NCBI GenBank assembly: GCA_017551925.1
Contig: JAFZKA010000116.1
Span: 1-35,943 of the forward strand
Direction: 5' to 3'
Source of the DNA: Bacteroidaceae bacterium
GTDB lineage: Bacteria > Bacteroidota > Bacteroidia > Bacteroidales > Bacteroidaceae
DNA: 35,943 nt
The notes under the pieces were generated by a model. It was not told the origin of the DNA. It made no database searches and was given only the letters and a program-made list of their open reading frames with translations. Shown one piece after another: positions 1,909 to 7,633 of the stretch; the stretch's first letter is position 1, and each line of letters starts with the position of its first letter. The translations under genes were made by a program, and so were the position numbers.

Positions 1909-2907
1909 TCAGCGGATGCCGGCTTTATCGAGGGCGCGCTGGTAGCGTGCTGCGTATGCGTTGTGCTGTGACAGGGTGGTGGAGAAATAGTGGGATCCAC
2001 TGAAATCCTCCTTGGCAGAGAAGTAGAGATAGTTGTGCTTGGTGTAGTTCAGGACTGCATTTATTGCCTGCGTGCTTACAAACCTGATGGGACCTGGAGG
2101 AAGCCCCGGATTCTTATAGGTATTATAAGGCGAGTCATATTCCAGATGCTTCTTGAGCACACGTTTGGGGCGTTCGCCTCCCATTGCGAATATGACCGTG
2201 GGACATGCCTGTAAGGGCAGTTTCTTTTTTAGACGGTTTATATAGACACCTGCAATAATTGGAAACTCCTCTGTTTTGGCCGTCTCTTCTTCAATAATGG
2301 AGGCTAAAATGATGACATCCTCCTCAGAGAGTCCTATTGACTTGGCTTTGGCTTTGCGTTCATCGGTCCAGTATCGGTTACGTTCCTTGACCAGACGTGC
2401 CAGCAGGGCATCGGCCGATGTGTTCCAATAGACCTCATATGTATTGGGGATTATCATGCAGAATACATTGGTGGGTGTGTAGCCCAGTGAGTCCAAGAAC
2501 GCGGGGTTGGTAAGGCGGCTGGCTATTGAGGCCGAATCCACCATTACCTGGTTTGCTATGGCGCGGGCCATCTGGCCAATGGTGCGGGTGCTGTTTATGG
2601 TCAGGCGGACCGGGGTCTGATTGCCGCTCAGCAGCATGTTTGAAACCTCTTTGGGTGTGGCTCCGCTCTTGATGGTGTAGCATCCGGTGCGGATGTGATT
2701 GTCATAGTCGCGGTGCTCAAGCAGGAAGTCCAGGGCTTTGGTCTGTGCCTGGGGATCGGTCTCCAGAATGGATTGTATGACGGTCTGGCGGGTATCGGAC
2801 GGATAGATGTATATCCTGTAGTCGGGGCATTCCGATACAGGTTTGTTGAATGAACATGCAGTAAAGAACAGCAGTGTGACAATTATCAATAATCCTTTTT
2901 TTGCCAT
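1909..2907 (-). CDS. mltG: MltG-like endolytic murein transglycosylase (copy 1), lipoprotein form
   Basis: MltG cuts nascent peptidoglycan glycan strands at the inner membrane. The start at 2907 gives 332 residues beginning MAKKGLLIIVTLLFFTAC, a lipoprotein signal whose Cys would be lipidated; an upstream ATG at 2961 would put 18 non-signal residues in front. The YceG/MltG domain fills the rest: the catalytic Glu206 in ASIIEEET is kept, as is PSTR-like PVRLTINSTRT and the C-terminal KEDFSGSHYFSTTLSQHNAYAARYQ. The usually conserved Asp of LQ(A/T)DPTV is Cys235 here, whereas copy 2 (6571-7596) keeps Asp. It is divergent from the GH51 gene at 2976. The two MltG proteins are roughly two-thirds identical by eye. 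Confidence 0.9.
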   Translation of the reverse strand: MAKKGLLIIVTLLFFTACSFNKPVSECPDYRIYIYPSDTRQTVIQSILETDPQAQTKALDFLLEHRDYDNHIRTGCYTIKSGATPKEVSNMLLSGNQTPVRLTINSTRTIGQMARAIANQVMVDSASIASRLTNPAFLDSLGYTPTNVFCMIIPNTYEVYWNTSADALLARLVKERNRYWTDERKAKAKSIGLSEEDVIILASIIEEETAKTEEFPIIAGVYINRLKKKLPLQACPTVIFAMGGERPKRVLKKHLEYDSPYNTYKNPGLPPGPIRFVSTQAINAVLNYTKHNYLYFSAKEDFSGSHYFSTTLSQHNAYAARYQRALDKAGIR

Positions 2908-2927
2908 TGCAATAGAGGTATCTGACA

Positions 2928-2958
2928 CAAAGATATTATCTTTACGAGTCAGAAACAA
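2928..2958 (-). promoter_or_regulatory. Promoter of mltG copy 1 in the divergent mltG/GH51 gap
   Basis: The minus strand carries TATCTTTG (2928-2935) with TTG at 2956-2958, spaced 20 nt, matching the Bacteroidetes -33/-7 pattern. A near match on the plus strand, TATCTTTA at 2937-2944, could serve the GH51 gene at 2976, so the two promoters would lie back to back in 68 nt. Confidence 0.55.
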
Positions 2959-2975
2959 CAAAACAATTCTATATA

Positions 2976-4544
2976 ATGATGAAAAAGGTTTTTTTCCTGC
3001 TTACTCTGACGGCAGCTCTGTCAGTAAGCGCCAAGAATGAAGTTACGGTTTATGTCCATGCCGACAAACCGGGTGCTACAATCAACAAGAATATCTACGG
3101 ACAGTTCTCAGAGCATCTGGGAACCTGCATCTACGGAGGTCTTTGGGTAGGCCCCGAGTCATCAATTCCCAACACCGACGGTTATCGTAATGACGTGCTG
3201 GCAGCCCTTAAGGAGCTGGAGGTTCCTGTAATGCGCTGGCCGGGCGGTTGCTATGCCGACGAGTATCACTGGATGGACGGTATCGGCCCCAAGGAGGATC
3301 GTCCCGTTATGGTGAACAACAACTGGGGTGGTATTGTCGAGGACAACAGCTTTGGTACACATGAGTTCCTTAACCTGTGCGAGCTTATCGGTTGCGAGCC
3401 TTATATCTCACTGAACGTTGGTAGCGGTTCCGTTGAGGAGGCTGCCAAATGGATTGAGTATATGAACGCTGCCGATGGTCCTATGGCCAAGCTGCGCAAG
3501 CAGAACGGTCGTGAGGAGCCCTGGCACGTTAAGTATATAGGTATAGGTAATGAGGCATGGGGCTGCGGCGGTAACATGTTGCCTGAGTACTACTCAGATA
3601 TTTTCCGTCGTTATCAGACCTATTGCCGCGATTTCAATGGTACTCAGCTGTTCAAGATTGCCAGCGGTGCTACCGACTACGATTATGAGTGGACCGAGGT
3701 TCTGATGAAAAAGGTGGGTTCAATGATGAACGCCGTTTCTCTGCACTACTATACAGTATCCGGTTGGGTAGGTGCCAAGAAGCCTGCTCTTGACTTTACC
3801 GATGAGGATTTCTACTGGTGCTTAGGTAAGTGCTTAGGTATTGAGCCCGTAATCCAGAAGCACCTGGCTATTATGAGCAAGTATGATCCCGAGCACAAGA
3901 CTCCGCTGCTGGTTGACGAGTGGGGTACATGGTGGGAGCCGGAGCCCGGCACTCAGCTCTATCAGCAAAGCACCATGCGTGACGCCCTTGTGGCTTCACT
4001 TTCACTTGACGTGTTCCACAAATATTGCGACCGCATTCAGATGACAAACATCGCCCAGGTTGCAAACGTGCTCCAGTCTATGATCCTGACCAAGGATGAC
4101 AAGATGGTGCTCACCCCGACATACTGGATCTTTGATATGTACAAGCCTCACATGGATGCTACTTACGTTCCCACTGACCTGGAGGGTGTTGAGGTTAAGC
4201 TTACTCCCAACGAGCGTTACGCAGCAAATCCTGATGAGACTGCTACACGTCCACTGCCGCTGTTCAGTTCAACTGCATCCATGAAGGACGGCAAACTGCA
4301 CGTTTCAATGTCAAACGTAAAACTGAACGAGGCTCAGACTGTTACCGTCAAGTTGGATGGCATCAAGGCAAAGAAAGTAAGTGGTAAGATTCTTACCAGT
4401 GACAAGGCCAGCAACTACAACACATTCGAGAATCCCGATAAGATTAAGCTTGCTGACTTTGACGGCGCACGCATCGATAAGAAAACAGGCGACCTGATAC
4501 TCGAGATCCCGGCTGCAAGTATCGTAACCCTCGAAGTAGAGTAA
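2976..4544 (+). CDS. Alpha-L-arabinofuranosidase, GH51 (copy A)
   Basis: This exported enzyme removes arabinose side chains from arabinoxylan or arabinan. It has 522 residues from ATG 2976 (a second ATG at 2979 would be equally good). Residues 1-20 are a signal peptide ending SVSAKNE. The GH51 barrel has NIYGQFSEHLG, MRWPGGCYADEYHW, acid/base Glu193 in GIGNEAWG and nucleophile Glu315 in LLVDEWGTWW. The C-terminal beta domain spans ~340-522. A nearly identical protein is encoded in inverted orientation at 4903-6468. Only about 20 of ~521 residues differ, all near the ends, yet many third codon positions differ. A hairpin with a T run directly after the stop probably ends transcription. Confidence 0.96.
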   Translation: MMKKVFFLLTLTAALSVSAKNEVTVYVHADKPGATINKNIYGQFSEHLGTCIYGGLWVGPESSIPNTDGYRNDVLAALKELEVPVMRWPGGCYADEYHWMDGIGPKEDRPVMVNNNWGGIVEDNSFGTHEFLNLCELIGCEPYISLNVGSGSVEEAAKWIEYMNAADGPMAKLRKQNGREEPWHVKYIGIGNEAWGCGGNMLPEYYSDIFRRYQTYCRDFNGTQLFKIASGATDYDYEWTEVLMKKVGSMMNAVSLHYYTVSGWVGAKKPALDFTDEDFYWCLGKCLGIEPVIQKHLAIMSKYDPEHKTPLLVDEWGTWWEPEPGTQLYQQSTMRDALVASLSLDVFHKYCDRIQMTNIAQVANVLQSMILTKDDKMVLTPTYWIFDMYKPHMDATYVPTDLEGVEVKLTPNERYAANPDETATRPLPLFSSTASMKDGKLHVSMSNVKLNEAQTVTVKLDGIKAKKVSGKILTSDKASNYNTFENPDKIKLADFDGARIDKKTGDLILEIPAASIVTLEVE

Positions 4545-4554
4545 ATCACAAAAA

Positions 4555-4593
4555 AATGACACAGTAGGGACGGTTCCTTCTGTGTCATTTTTT
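4555..4593 (+). repeat. GGGACGGTTCC palindromic element A, likely terminator of GH51 copy A
   Basis: Perfect 10-bp arms AATGACACAG (4555-4564) and CTGTGTCATT (4580-4589) enclose TAGGGACGGTTCCTT, which can form an inner GGA/TCC stem with a CGGT loop. A T run follows (4588-4594), so it can act as a Rho-independent terminator 10 nt after the stop codon. Elements at 4816-4904 and 7599-7633 share the core. Confidence 0.8.
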
Positions 4594-4601
4594 TATCTTT
4601 G
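4594..4601 (+). promoter_or_regulatory. -7 box for tRNA-Gly
   Basis: TATCTTTG matches TAnnTTTG and lies 11 nt before the mature tRNA 5' end, directly after the terminator of GH51 copy A. No clear -33 TTG is seen. Confidence 0.55.
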
Positions 4602-4612
4602 CACACGCAATC

Positions 4613-4685
4613 GCGATAGTAGCTCAGTTGGTAGAGCGTTGGCTTCCCAAGCCGAAGGTCGCGAGTTCGAGACTCGTCTATCGCT
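4613..4685 (+). tRNA. tRNA-Gly (anticodon CCC)
   Basis: The cloverleaf is complete: acceptor GCGATAG/CTATCGC, D arm GCTC...GAGC, anticodon stem TTGGC/GCCGA with loop TTCCCAA (anticodon CCC, reads GGG), T arm GCGAG-TTCGAGA-CTCGT and discriminator T, as expected for glycine. CCA is not encoded. The 3' half is repeated downstream at 4777-4813. Confidence 0.95.
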
Positions 4686-4689
4686 CTGG

Positions 4690-4716
4690 AAAGGGTTCCT
4701 CTTTTTGGAACTCTTT
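4690..4716 (+). terminator. Hairpin after tRNA-Gly
   Basis: Arms AAAGGGTTCC (4690-4699) and GGAACTCTTT (4707-4716) pair over 10 bp with one G-T. The loop is TCTTTTT. The T tail is weak (CTCATTCT), so termination may instead occur at the large palindrome at 4816-4904. Confidence 0.45.
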
Positions 4717-4726
4717 CTCATTCTAT

Positions 4727-4813
4727 CGGCTTGGGAAGCCAAGGGCTTGTCTAAGCGCTCGCTACCCGCTCGCTTGAGCCGAAGGTCGCGAGTTCGAGAC
4801 TCGTCTATCGCTC
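4727..4813 (+). pseudogene. Rearranged tRNA-Gly fragments
   Basis: Two pieces of the adjacent tRNA are present. Bases 4727-4742 are an inverted copy of the anticodon arm (CGGCTTGGGAAGCCAA). Bases 4777-4813 are an exact 37-bp direct copy of 4650-4686, the anticodon-stem 3' strand through the acceptor end. Between them lies a G+C-rich stretch with a possible AAGCG/CGCTT hairpin around CTACCCG (4754-4775). The 5' half of a tRNA is missing, so this is not a functional gene. It could be the scar of an integrated element that used the tRNA 3' end, or a replication-slippage product. Confidence 0.8.
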
Positions 4814-4815
4814 AA

Positions 4816-4904
4816 AAAAGGACACAAAAGGACCGTTTCCCTGTGTCATTATCAAATCCTCGGAGAAAGGATGACACAGGGAAACGGTCCTTTTGTGTTC
4901 TTTT
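4816..4904. repeat. GGGACGGTTCC-type element B: double palindrome, bidirectional terminator
   Basis: Two 34-nt arms (4816-4849 and 4871-4904) are inverted copies with one mismatch, separated by 21 nt. Each arm is itself a hairpin: GACACA ... TGTGTC around AAAGGACCGTTTCCC (core GGGAAACGGTCC on the other strand). A- and T-runs flank both sides, so it can terminate tRNA-Gly on plus and GH51 copy B on minus. The arm overlaps the stop codon of copy B by 2 nt. Confidence 0.85.
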
Positions 4905-6468
4905 ATTCTATTTCCAATGTGACTATGCTGGCAGCGGGGATTTCAAGTGTGATGGCACCGGTTTTCTTGTCTATCTTGGCACCCTTGAAATCAGCAAGCT
5001 TGATCTTGTCAGGATTCTCAAATGTGTTGTAGTTGCTGGCCTTGTCACTGGTAAGGATCTTGCCGGAAACCTTAGTAGCCTTGATTCCGTCAAGTTTCAC
5101 TGTTACAGCCTGAGCCTCGTTCAGTTTGACATTTGACATGGAAACATGAAGTTTGCCGTTCTTCTTTGAGGCGGTTGAACTGAACAGAGGCAGCGGACGT
5201 GTTGCAGTCTCATCAGGATTTGCAGCATAGCGCTCATTGGGAGTGAGTTTAACCTCAACGCCCTCAAGGTCAGTAGGAATGTATGTAGCATCCATGTGAG
5301 GCTTGTACATATCAAAGATCCAGTATGTGGGTGTGAGCACCATCTTGTCATCCTTGGTCAGGATCATAGACTGGAGCACATTGGCCACCTGTGCGATGTT
5401 GGTCATCTGAATGCGGTCACAGTACTTGTGAAACACATCAAGTGAGAGTGAAGCCACAAGAGCGTCACGCATGGTGCTCTGCTGGTAGAGTTGTGTGCCG
5501 GGCTCCGGCTCCCACCATGTACCCCACTCGTCAACCAGCAGCGGAGTCTTGTGCTCAGGATCGTACTTGCTCATTATGGCCAGATGCTTCTGGATAACGG
5601 GCTCGATACCCAGGCACTTGCCAAGACACCAGTAGAAATCCTCATCAGTAAAATCCAGAGCAGGCTTCTTGGCACCTACCCAACCTGATACTGTATAGTA
5701 GTGCAGAGATACGGCATTCATCATTGAGCCAACCTTCTTCATCAGGACCTCGGTCCACTCATAGTCGTAGTCTGTAGCACCGCTGGCAATCTTAAAGAGC
5801 TGAGTGCCGTTAAAGTCGCGGCAGTAGGTCTGATAACGGCGGAAAATGTCTGAGTAATACTCTGGCAGCATGTTACCTCCGCAACCCCATGCCTCATTAC
5901 CTATACCGATGTATTTTACGTGCCAGGGCTCCTCACGGCCGTTCTGCTTGCGCAACTTGGCCATAGGACCATCGGCGGCGTTCATATACTCAATCCACTT
6001 GGCGGCCTCCTCAACAGAGCCGCTACCTACGTTCAGTGAAATATAAGGCTCGCAACCTATCAGTTCGCAAAGATTCAGGAACTCATGTGTACCGAAACTG
6101 TTGTCCTCAACAATACCGCCCCAGTTGTTATTCACCATAACGGGGCGATCCTCCTTTGGACCGATGCCGTCCATCCAGTGATACTCATCGGCATAGCAAC
6201 CGCCCGGCCAGCGCATTACAGGTACCTCTAGTTCCTTGAGTGCAGCAAGCACATCATTACGATAACCGTTAGTGTTTGGGATCTTTGACTCAGGACCTAC
6301 CCACAGACCACCGTAGATGCAGGTTCCCAGATGCTCTGAGAACTGTCCGTAGATGTTCTTGTTGATGGTTGCACCCGGTTTGTCGGCATGCACGTTTACA
6401 GTAACCTCATTCTTTGCGCTTACTGACAGAACTGCCGTCAGTGAAAGCAGGAATAATACCTTTTTCAT
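4903..6468 (-). CDS. Alpha-L-arabinofuranosidase, GH51 (copy B)
   Basis: This is the second exported GH51, 521 residues from ATG 6468 (MKKVLFLLSLTAVLSVSA signal peptide). A longer reading frame to 6534 adds 22 residues that would precede the signal peptide and run through the promoter, so it was rejected. Catalytic motifs GIGNEAWG and LLVDEWGTWW are intact. The protein matches copy A (2976-4544) through the whole catalytic core; differences cluster in the signal peptide and the last ~110 residues. Synonymous positions differ often, so the copies are not an assembly duplicate. It is divergent from mltG copy 2, mirroring copy A and mltG copy 1. Confidence 0.96.
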   Translation of the reverse strand: MKKVLFLLSLTAVLSVSAKNEVTVNVHADKPGATINKNIYGQFSEHLGTCIYGGLWVGPESKIPNTNGYRNDVLAALKELEVPVMRWPGGCYADEYHWMDGIGPKEDRPVMVNNNWGGIVEDNSFGTHEFLNLCELIGCEPYISLNVGSGSVEEAAKWIEYMNAADGPMAKLRKQNGREEPWHVKYIGIGNEAWGCGGNMLPEYYSDIFRRYQTYCRDFNGTQLFKIASGATDYDYEWTEVLMKKVGSMMNAVSLHYYTVSGWVGAKKPALDFTDEDFYWCLGKCLGIEPVIQKHLAIMSKYDPEHKTPLLVDEWGTWWEPEPGTQLYQQSTMRDALVASLSLDVFHKYCDRIQMTNIAQVANVLQSMILTKDDKMVLTPTYWIFDMYKPHMDATYIPTDLEGVEVKLTPNERYAANPDETATRPLPLFSSTASKKNGKLHVSMSNVKLNEAQAVTVKLDGIKATKVSGKILTSDKASNYNTFENPDKIKLADFKGAKIDKKTGAITLEIPAASIVTLEIE

Positions 6469-6501
6469 TATTAATATGTGATTTTGTTTGTATGCGTGCT
6501 C

Positions 6502-6509
6502 CAAAGTTA
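6502..6509 (-). promoter_or_regulatory. -7 box for GH51 copy B
   Basis: The minus strand reads TAACTTTG, a full TAnnTTTG match, 33 nt before the ATG at 6468. This supports the shorter start. No clear -33 element. Confidence 0.6.
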
Positions 6510-6542
6510 GAAAAAATCCCGCGCTATAACCCACTTTATCAC

Positions 6543-6550
6543 TATTTTTG
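6543..6550 (+). promoter_or_regulatory. -7 box for mltG copy 2
   Basis: TATTTTTG matches TAnnTTTG and lies 20 nt before the ATG at 6571. With the box at 6502 it makes a divergent promoter pair like that of the other mltG/GH51 arm. Confidence 0.55.
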
Positions 6551-6570
6551 CTGAAAAATAATAATACTCT

Positions 6571-7596
6571 ATGTCTTTCAGAAAAGGATTATTGTTCATT
6601 TCCGCAGCCGTCATTGTCATTGCTGCGGCATTTGCAGCATACTGTTACCATGTATTCACCAGTCCGGTATCAACGTGTCAGGACTATCGGATATACATAC
6701 GCCCGTCTGATACCCGCAGCAGCGTTATCCAATCCATAATGGCATCAGACCCCGCTGCCAGTACAAAAGCCCTTGAGTATCTTTTAAAGCACAGGAATTA
6801 TGATCAGAACATTCACACCGGATGCTATACAGTCAAAAGCGGAGCAACCCCCAAGCAGGTAACCGATATGCTGACAAGCGGAGCGCAAACCCCTGTCAGG
6901 CTCACCATAAATAGTACCCGCACGGTCAGTCAGATGGTCCACAACATAGCATTACAGTTAATGGCTGATTCTGCCACAATAGAAAAACGCATCACTGATA
7001 CACACCTGCTGGATTCCTTGGGATACAATCCTGCCACAATATTCTGCATGATCATACCCAACACCTATGAGGTTTACTGGAACATATCGGCCGATGCTCT
7101 TATAAAGCGGCTCTTAAAGGAGCGTGACCGTTTCTGGAACGAAACCCGCAGGAACAAGGCAAATTCAATAGGCCTGTCAGAACAGGAAGTGATGACACTT
7201 GCCTCAATAATTGAAGAAGAGACATCAAAAACTGATGAACTGCCAATTGTGGCCGGTCTCTATATTAATCGTCTGAACAGGAAAATGCCTCTCCAGGCAG
7301 ACCCGACAGTCATATTCGCGCTCGGAGGCGAAAGACCTAAAAGAGTACTCAAAGAGCATCTTGAGGTAAACTCGCCGTATAATACATATAAAAACGCGGG
7401 GTTGCCGCCAGCACCAATCAGATTTGTAAACACACGTTCTATTGATGCCGTACTCAACTACACAAAGCACAATTATCTGTATATGTGCGCCAAAGAGGAT
7501 TTCAGCGGCTATCACAATTTTGCCACGACCCTGTCACAGCACAACGCAAATGCGCGCCGATATCAGCGTGCATTGAGCCAGGCCGGAATACGCTGA
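6571..7596 (+). CDS. mltG: MltG-like endolytic murein transglycosylase (copy 2), membrane-anchored
   Basis: This 341-residue protein has an N-terminal transmembrane helix at ~6-27 (LLFISAAVIVIAAAFAAYCY) and then the MltG domain. Catalytic Glu215 lies in ASIIEEET, and the conserved LQADPTV keeps Asp244. The C-terminal region YNTYKNAGLPPAPI is typical of the family. It probably cuts nascent peptidoglycan at the inner membrane and so sets glycan length. Unlike copy 1 it lacks a lipobox Cys at the membrane segment and has every expected active-site residue, so it is the better candidate for the housekeeping enzyme. Its stop is 2 nt before palindromic element C. Confidence 0.92.
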   Translation: MSFRKGLLFISAAVIVIAAAFAAYCYHVFTSPVSTCQDYRIYIRPSDTRSSVIQSIMASDPAASTKALEYLLKHRNYDQNIHTGCYTVKSGATPKQVTDMLTSGAQTPVRLTINSTRTVSQMVHNIALQLMADSATIEKRITDTHLLDSLGYNPATIFCMIIPNTYEVYWNISADALIKRLLKERDRFWNETRRNKANSIGLSEQEVMTLASIIEEETSKTDELPIVAGLYINRLNRKMPLQADPTVIFALGGERPKRVLKEHLEVNSPYNTYKNAGLPPAPIRFVNTRSIDAVLNYTKHNYLYMCAKEDFSGYHNFATTLSQHNANARRYQRALSQAGIR

Positions 7597-7598
7597 CT

Positions 7599-7633
7599 CT
7601 GTCCGCATTAGGGACGGTTCCTTTTGCGGACAG
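7599..7633. repeat. GGGACGGTTCC palindromic element C
   Basis: Arms CTGTCCGCA (7599-7607) and TGCGGACAG (7625-7633) enclose TTAGGGACGGTTCCTTT. The core equals that of element A while both stem strands are changed together. It lies between the convergent mltG copy 2 and the GH10 gene and may act as a terminator, although no T run follows. Confidence 0.75.

Follow-up and report, generated by a model that had tools for sequence, protein, structure and literature searches.

The window analyzed here is a stretch of 35,943 nucleotides (contig JAFZKA010000116.1) from the genome of a Bacteroidaceae bacterium, G000, whose 2.6-Mb assembly comprises 127 contigs and is 97% complete. It contains small palindromic elements at the ends of genes. 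Element A (4550..4594, plus strand) is a single palindromic unit, TGACACAGTA-GGGACGGTTCC-TTCTGTGTCA, set within an A7/T7 extension; its core occupies 4567-4577, and it lies 12 nt after the stop codon (4542-4544) of an alpha-L-arabinofuranosidase gene (2976..4544, plus strand, PF06964). Element C (7599..7633, plus strand) has the form GTCCGCATTA-GGGACGGTTCC-TTTTGCGGAC, with its core at 7611-7621, and follows by 4 nt the stop codon (7594-7596) of an mltG (YceG-like) gene (6571..7596, plus strand, PF02618), the reference of one of our orthologue comparisons. These two cores are the only exact GGGACGGTTCC sites in the window. Element B (4816..4904, no strand assigned) is an inverted dimer with 34-bp arms, 97% complementary, and a sibling-type core, GGACCGTTTCC. 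It extends to the stop codon (4903-4905) of a second alpha-L-arabinofuranosidase gene (4903..6471, minus strand, PF06964), an inverted duplicate of the first that terminates at the element. This third palindrome (4816-4904) is presumably the element B that the first-pass annotation left undescribed. The palindromes claimed near 4555 and 7633 are present there, and their single-stranded DNA folds are much more stable than those of shuffled sequences (A, −12.8 kcal/mol, z −6.5; C, −12.3 kcal/mol, z −6.7); element B reaches a z of −11.6. We propose that such palindromes are probably non-autonomous single-strand DNA elements of the REP/REPIN type, moved by a Y1 transposase of the TIRYT kind.

The elements belong to a large family. 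The exact core GGGACGGTTCC occurs 90 times in the assembly (50 forward, 40 reverse) and its reversed control not at all, which disposes of the possibility that it occurs at chance frequency. The core had been described as fixed: it is indeed the same in A and C, although its invariance elsewhere is partly a product of searching for the exact core. Counting this genome, 27 of the 37 available for the genus contain it. A 31-position model, built from 63 of the 69 distinct copies of this genome, matched at least 100 places in G000 at E values up to 0.01 and gave matches in 23 of the 37 genomes, G000 again included; since 150 candidates were scored per genome, these counts are lower bounds. Elements A and C were among the matches (4557-4587, 47.3 bits, and 7601-7631, 49.5 bits), and so were four places around the transposase gene L082 of a congener (46-49 bits). 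A stricter pattern, CRCANTAGGGACGGTTCCTTCYG, has 50 sites in this genome and occurs in 5 of 301 genomes searched across the family, all from the same genus. Where two cores lie less than 400 nt apart, they stand in forward-then-reverse order in 23 of 23 cases. The outer triplet of the copies is GTA (27 copies), GTC (23), TGA (17), TAA (5) or another, GTA and GTC being followed by C. For nine cores the nearest contig end is no more than about 55 nt away, suggesting that the assembly tends to break at copies. A search for sibling cores gave 13 sites; by eye, seven cores in four loci are elements and six look like chance. A literature search by core sequence gave 24 papers, of which the 20 listed seem unrelated judging from their titles.

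How firmly is the folded form maintained? The pairing test covered 69 distinct copies, a few of them with chance or shifted cores, and across the four variable pairs 194 of 276 cells were paired, compared with a mean of 162.3 in shuffles, none of which reached as high in 10000. Restricting the alignment to 63 rows, covariation (0.154 versus 0.099) and paired cells (87.7% versus 83.8%) again exceeded every one of 500 shuffles, and the true register stood far above slid registers. The compensating stem changes reported by the first-pass annotation are thus real but partial. Copies with unpaired flanks, part of what it had named as a refutation, do exist. Arms at pairs 5-10 are fully Watson-Crick in 19 of 87 copies, and each of the outer three pairs is unpaired in 21-23 of the 63 rows, so the pairing rule is loose. 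The folded unit is often an inverted dimer and not a single palindrome. Watson-Crick pairing at all three outer positions is seen in 22 of 44 copies that lack a near partner, in 5 of the 7 whose partner is a variant and in 6 of 36 in short dimers.

The same data bear on a different view, in which the compensating changes reflect mosaic copying among a few subtypes and not selection for the fold. A few arm haplotypes do recur, arms match within one unit in only 3 of 38 short-dimer units (a contig end truncates two of the units), and on the 63 rows two covariation measures are no higher than in shuffles: pairs changed on both sides (3 versus 3.0) and further pair types (11 versus 10.1, equalled in 136 of 500). 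Yet the 19 short dimers match between units, their outer arms being identical in 8 of 19 and their inner arms in 13 of 19, against about 8% at random, and lone copies keep their own stem more often than short-dimer copies do (Fisher p 0.002, the lone class also taking in two chance cores and dimers truncated at contig ends). With kinship among copies partly controlled, the hairpin tends to be kept within the lone unit and across units in the dimer. We consider mosaic copying a doubtful explanation of the stem changes. In the reading we propose, an element tends to remain self-complementary in whichever form it has, since the enzyme would take its folded single strand as substrate.

The evidence on the enzyme comes from congeneric genomes. 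A Y1 gene is present in 23 of the 37 genomes of the genus, and palindromic repeats bracket most of these genes. At L082 (genome G004), the closest match, the gene is flanked by the window's own element type, whose first three bases form the TGA stop codon of the gene. Downstream of L098, which is 75% identical to L082, there is a repeat that by eye resembles the CCGTTTCCCTGTGTCAT arm of element B. Copies downstream of Y1 genes often start at the Y1 stop codon. At L100, L086 and L074 the transposase frame enters the flanking element, which codes for C-terminal residues (e.g., GTVPF). Near-identical congeneric Y1 loci come from rumen Bacteroidales assemblies. From a scan of named genomes, the best 80 of 578 relatives were kept; they come from Bacteroidota, Bacillota and a single Atribacterota record. 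Of the 92 Y1 loci that remained once duplicates were removed, 64 carried an identical GGG[AT]CN5 core 10-mer on both flanks, compared with 571 of 2000 mismatched flanks, a control that is high because GGGACGGTTC is common to many loci. An earlier set, from which nine near-duplicates were later removed, had at least 13 shared nucleotides at 58 of 96 loci, compared with 180 of 1500 mismatched. Core classes also follow the transposases: on a quick tree with 62 labeled rows they require 7 changes, against a shuffled mean of 17.2 with none of 200 as low, although near-copies add to this clustering. In the genus, 20 of 26 loci have on at least one flank a palindrome that reaches p ≤ 0.04 against 25 shuffles.

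To which group do these enzymes belong? The 26 aligned congeneric proteins are mostly about 265 aa long, and the NCBIfam model REP_Tyr_transpos (NF047646) matched five of five scanned proteins at 48.9 to 61.7 bits, below its 80-bit cut-off. Pfam Y1_Tnp matched the three proteins scanned (L082, L075 and L101). Two of them have weak C-terminal helix-turn-helix (HTH) matches below the Pfam cut-offs, L082 to HTH_23 (E value 0.0063) and HTH_28 (0.01) and L075 to HTH_38 (0.046), and the Pfam scan of L101 gave no HTH match. The only solved relative of the protein profile at E values up to 0.01 is TnpArep 4er8 (0.0072). One further protein in the genus, L072 of G018, is a classical short IS200-type TnpA (159 aa, 130 bits), the only Y1 match above 51 bits in the 37 genomes.

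In TIR repeats, as far as the consulted part of the account goes (Di Nocera 2013, PMC3733652), inverted repeats flank the Y1 genes called TIRYT and have dispersed copies in some genomes; some are self-complementary and some are dimers, and a GGGGWSAS motif occurs in some and is not defining. Our elements are similar in that inverted copies flank Y1 genes in the congeners, although not in this genome, and in having dispersed copies, the 90 cores of G000. The window core AGGGACGG departs from GGGGWSAS, whereas the sibling types GGGGACAG and GGGGTCAG fit it. Among TnpA classes, subclass 2.1, or RAYT group 1, consists of long Y1 proteins that have an FQ motif and are extended at the C terminus by a region similar to HTH_23/HTH_28 (Quentin 2018, PMC6006769), and is suspected there to be TIRYT; the same study reports that automatic and manual searches found no REP-like sequences near its genes. 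The congeneric proteins resemble it in protein length (median 265 aa in 28 proteins), in NHVH (24 of 28) and in FQ (28 of 28, a motif partly selected by the scan pattern at the named loci). They differ from it in the palindromes beside 20 of 26 loci. Subclass 2.6, or RAYT group 5, is characterized in the part of PMC6006769 at hand as mostly from Bacteroidetes, with YIH[QN]NP, WQ and 179 aa, and with atypical flanking structures that have copies elsewhere in the genome. The link to Bacteroidetes and the flanking structures with dispersed copies have their parallels here, and the YIH[QN]NP motif is shared by 24 of the 28 congeneric proteins, unlike the WQ motif and the length. With motifs mixed, the congeneric enzymes are probably of TIRYT type, and we judge subclass 2.1 more likely than 2.6. 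REP/REPIN sequences of the GTAG type with their RAYTs, reportedly described by Nunvar in 2010 and Bertels in 2011, are said to be short palindromes and inverted dimers whose Y1 gene has its own element family, and all of this has its counterpart here. Membership in that group was rejected, because the copies examined have no GTAG or GTGG foot and the palindrome runs through the core. In CGTC-tagged REPs, whose reported hosts include Bacteroidetes, CGTC is a terminal tag and no transposase gene is flanked (PMC3733652). CGTC is present in our elements, but inside the core, with a different foot and with flanked transposase genes, and this candidate was also rejected. The first-pass annotation's comparison with REP elements and a Y1 enzyme holds up, except that the enzymes look like TIRYT, or subclass 2.1, and not like RAYTs of the GTAG type. 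A REP-type repeat mobilized by such a transposase is its best reading, since this element type and its siblings bracket the Y1 genes of the congeners.

Several results weigh against mobilization by a TIRYT-kind enzyme, beginning with the two flat covariation measures. Mobility itself is something we infer from sequence. The Pfam model, which recovered 5 of 14 known genomes as controls, gave no Y1_Tnp match in this genome, and neither did the profile of 26 congeneric proteins match anything, in a search without a positive-control genome; the absence of a transposase noted for the window thus extends to the whole assembly as far as it was searched. G029 has 80 cores and a single Y1 gene, L085, flanked by the GGGGTCAGGCC type, so core-rich congeners need not carry a matching gene. 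Both flanks carry a palindrome with p ≤ 0.04 at 12 of 26 congeneric loci, 4 of 13 in other Bacteroidota and only 4 of 49 elsewhere. The Y motif is YIHQNP in 24 of 28 proteins and YIHLNP in one, conforming to the general class 2 Y...NP but mostly unlike the YIELNP or Y[IV]HLNP listed for subclass 2.1. Finally, for 47 of 87 copies no long frame ends in the interval from −30 to +5 nt around the element end. The missing gene, together with core-rich genomes such as G029, could point to spread by replication slippage, recombination or another transposase, with Y1 genes as merely another landing place. We regard this as very improbable, given that core class tracks the transposase tree, that the same 10-mer stands on both Y1 flanks at most loci and that downstream copies so often start at the Y1 stop codon. 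The mechanism we favor is that elements of one unit or two inverted units spread in trans through a TIRYT-kind Y1 (HUH/tyrosine) transposase, likely from subclass 2.1, which would recognize the GGGACGGTTCC hairpin and cut and move it. The lineage would once have had this enzyme and since lost it, or the gene may be missing only from the assembly, as contigs end at copies.

The position of the copies relative to genes is the second feature of the family. Upstream sequence was sufficient for 87 copies, and in 40 of these an open frame of at least 80 codons (not all checked as genes) has its stop codon at −30 to +5 nt of the element end, compared with 5 of 150 shifted positions, a control that flatters the result because its sites, 100-200 nt upstream, are mostly inside genes. 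The statement that all copies sit near stop codons is accurate for A and C in the window and too broad for the genome. The first triplet is TGA or TAA in 22 copies, in 15 of the 87 the stop codon is exactly that triplet, and fully palindromic copies themselves carry TGA...TCA. Could these be functional RNA elements, intrinsic terminators or 3' stabilizers of mRNA, selected at gene ends and not mobile? The 40 copies by stop codons would suit such a role, as would the T7 that follows element A, though T7 can also pair with A7. However, the terminator scan gave nothing at element A and only part of a structure at C, the presence and type of element vary among congeners at the same gene, and transposase genes are bracketed by the same sequences. 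An RNA function of this kind seems unlikely to us. Hairpins just after stop codons recall the REPs of Escherichia coli, which lie within 15 nt of them in the portion of the report consulted (PMC12306157); ours differ in that the first three bases can be the stop codon. For exact occupancy, our literature search, outside which most subscription papers fall, gave only that E. coli observation, and the coincidence was not met in the available account of TIRs (PMC3733652).

Comparison of orthologues shows how such sites are occupied. All 30 hisB orthologues compared end in LPS[ST]KG plus two residues, and in 9 of 30 an inverted repeat of at least 10 bp starts no more than 14 nt from the stop codon. 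Eight of these repeats are of the GGGAC or GGGGWC kind and the ninth belongs to a different one; L272 has one further repeat by eye. In this genome the TGA stop of hisB is the start of the element, and a dimer fills exactly the space between this TGA and the TCA of the convergent gene. The relative L267 has an empty site: its TAG stop abuts the terminal TCA of the convergent gene, a homologue of which aligns to its last residue. Other hisB stops are TAG (L256, L257 and L260, as in L267), TAA (L258) and TGA (L259); the outer triplet could come from the element or from the target. A palindromic repeat, CCAAAGTGTCCCAC, directly follows the hisB stop codon in L256, L257, L260 and L274. In folE, an element begins by eye on the TGA itself in 7 of 29 orthologues (L285, from this genome, L287, L289, L290, L295, L299 and L300), and the core types among them number three or more; in two of them the arm test gives weak values (L287, 7 bp, 0.08 of shuffles; L299, 8 bp, 0.03), and some cases may be one shared insertion. 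In mltG, 4 of 29 orthologues have such an element by the stop codon, with perfect arms of 9 bp (L225, from this genome), 21 bp (L236), 36 bp (L238, exactly on the stop) and 7 bp (L242, not significant). Several element types thus occupy identical stop codons in orthologues of these three genes, and those with elements there gave no sign of truncated proteins. The outward TGA/TAA ends would let some copies occupy stop codons, even between convergent genes, without truncating the protein. We put forward tentatively that elements of TIRYT type integrate preferentially at stop codons, a safe harbor reused by several distinct families, and, equally as a possibility only, that an insertion replaces or restores the stop of one or both convergent neighbors.

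The kind of element is already known, and stop-codon occupancy extends the record. Also new are hairpin repeats beside genes resembling subclass 2.1, for which the part of PMC6006769 consulted reports none; that study left open a tie of this large subclass to REP-like DNA and called for more analysis. If the proteins are indeed of subclass 2.1, the data connect it with hairpin repeats in Bacteroidales and, to a lesser degree, in Bacillota. Exact coincidence with stop codons offers a testable idea of how high copy number could be reached in gene-dense genomes without harm to genes, and an orphan family would show copies outlasting any detectable enzyme.

The genome also contains a larger second repeat of about 190-330 bp with nested inverted repeats (L037:380-720; z of the fold, −14.9), and the small element often borders it; 41 of its 49 match rows in G000 exceed 90 bp. 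An Rfam search of four loci with this repeat gave three matches at E values up to 1 and none at the gathering score, the best being AsrC (E value 0.019, 19 of 111 bits). In the window, 2974-6473 is a large inverted duplication that carries the two alpha-L-arabinofuranosidase genes, 87% complementary over 1587 nt. A tRNA-Gly gene (4613-4686) lies between these facing genes, with a partial copy of its 3' half at 4777-4821 and an inverted 17-nt piece at 4726-4742, and a second mltG-like gene (1909-2961, minus strand) stands beyond the duplication.

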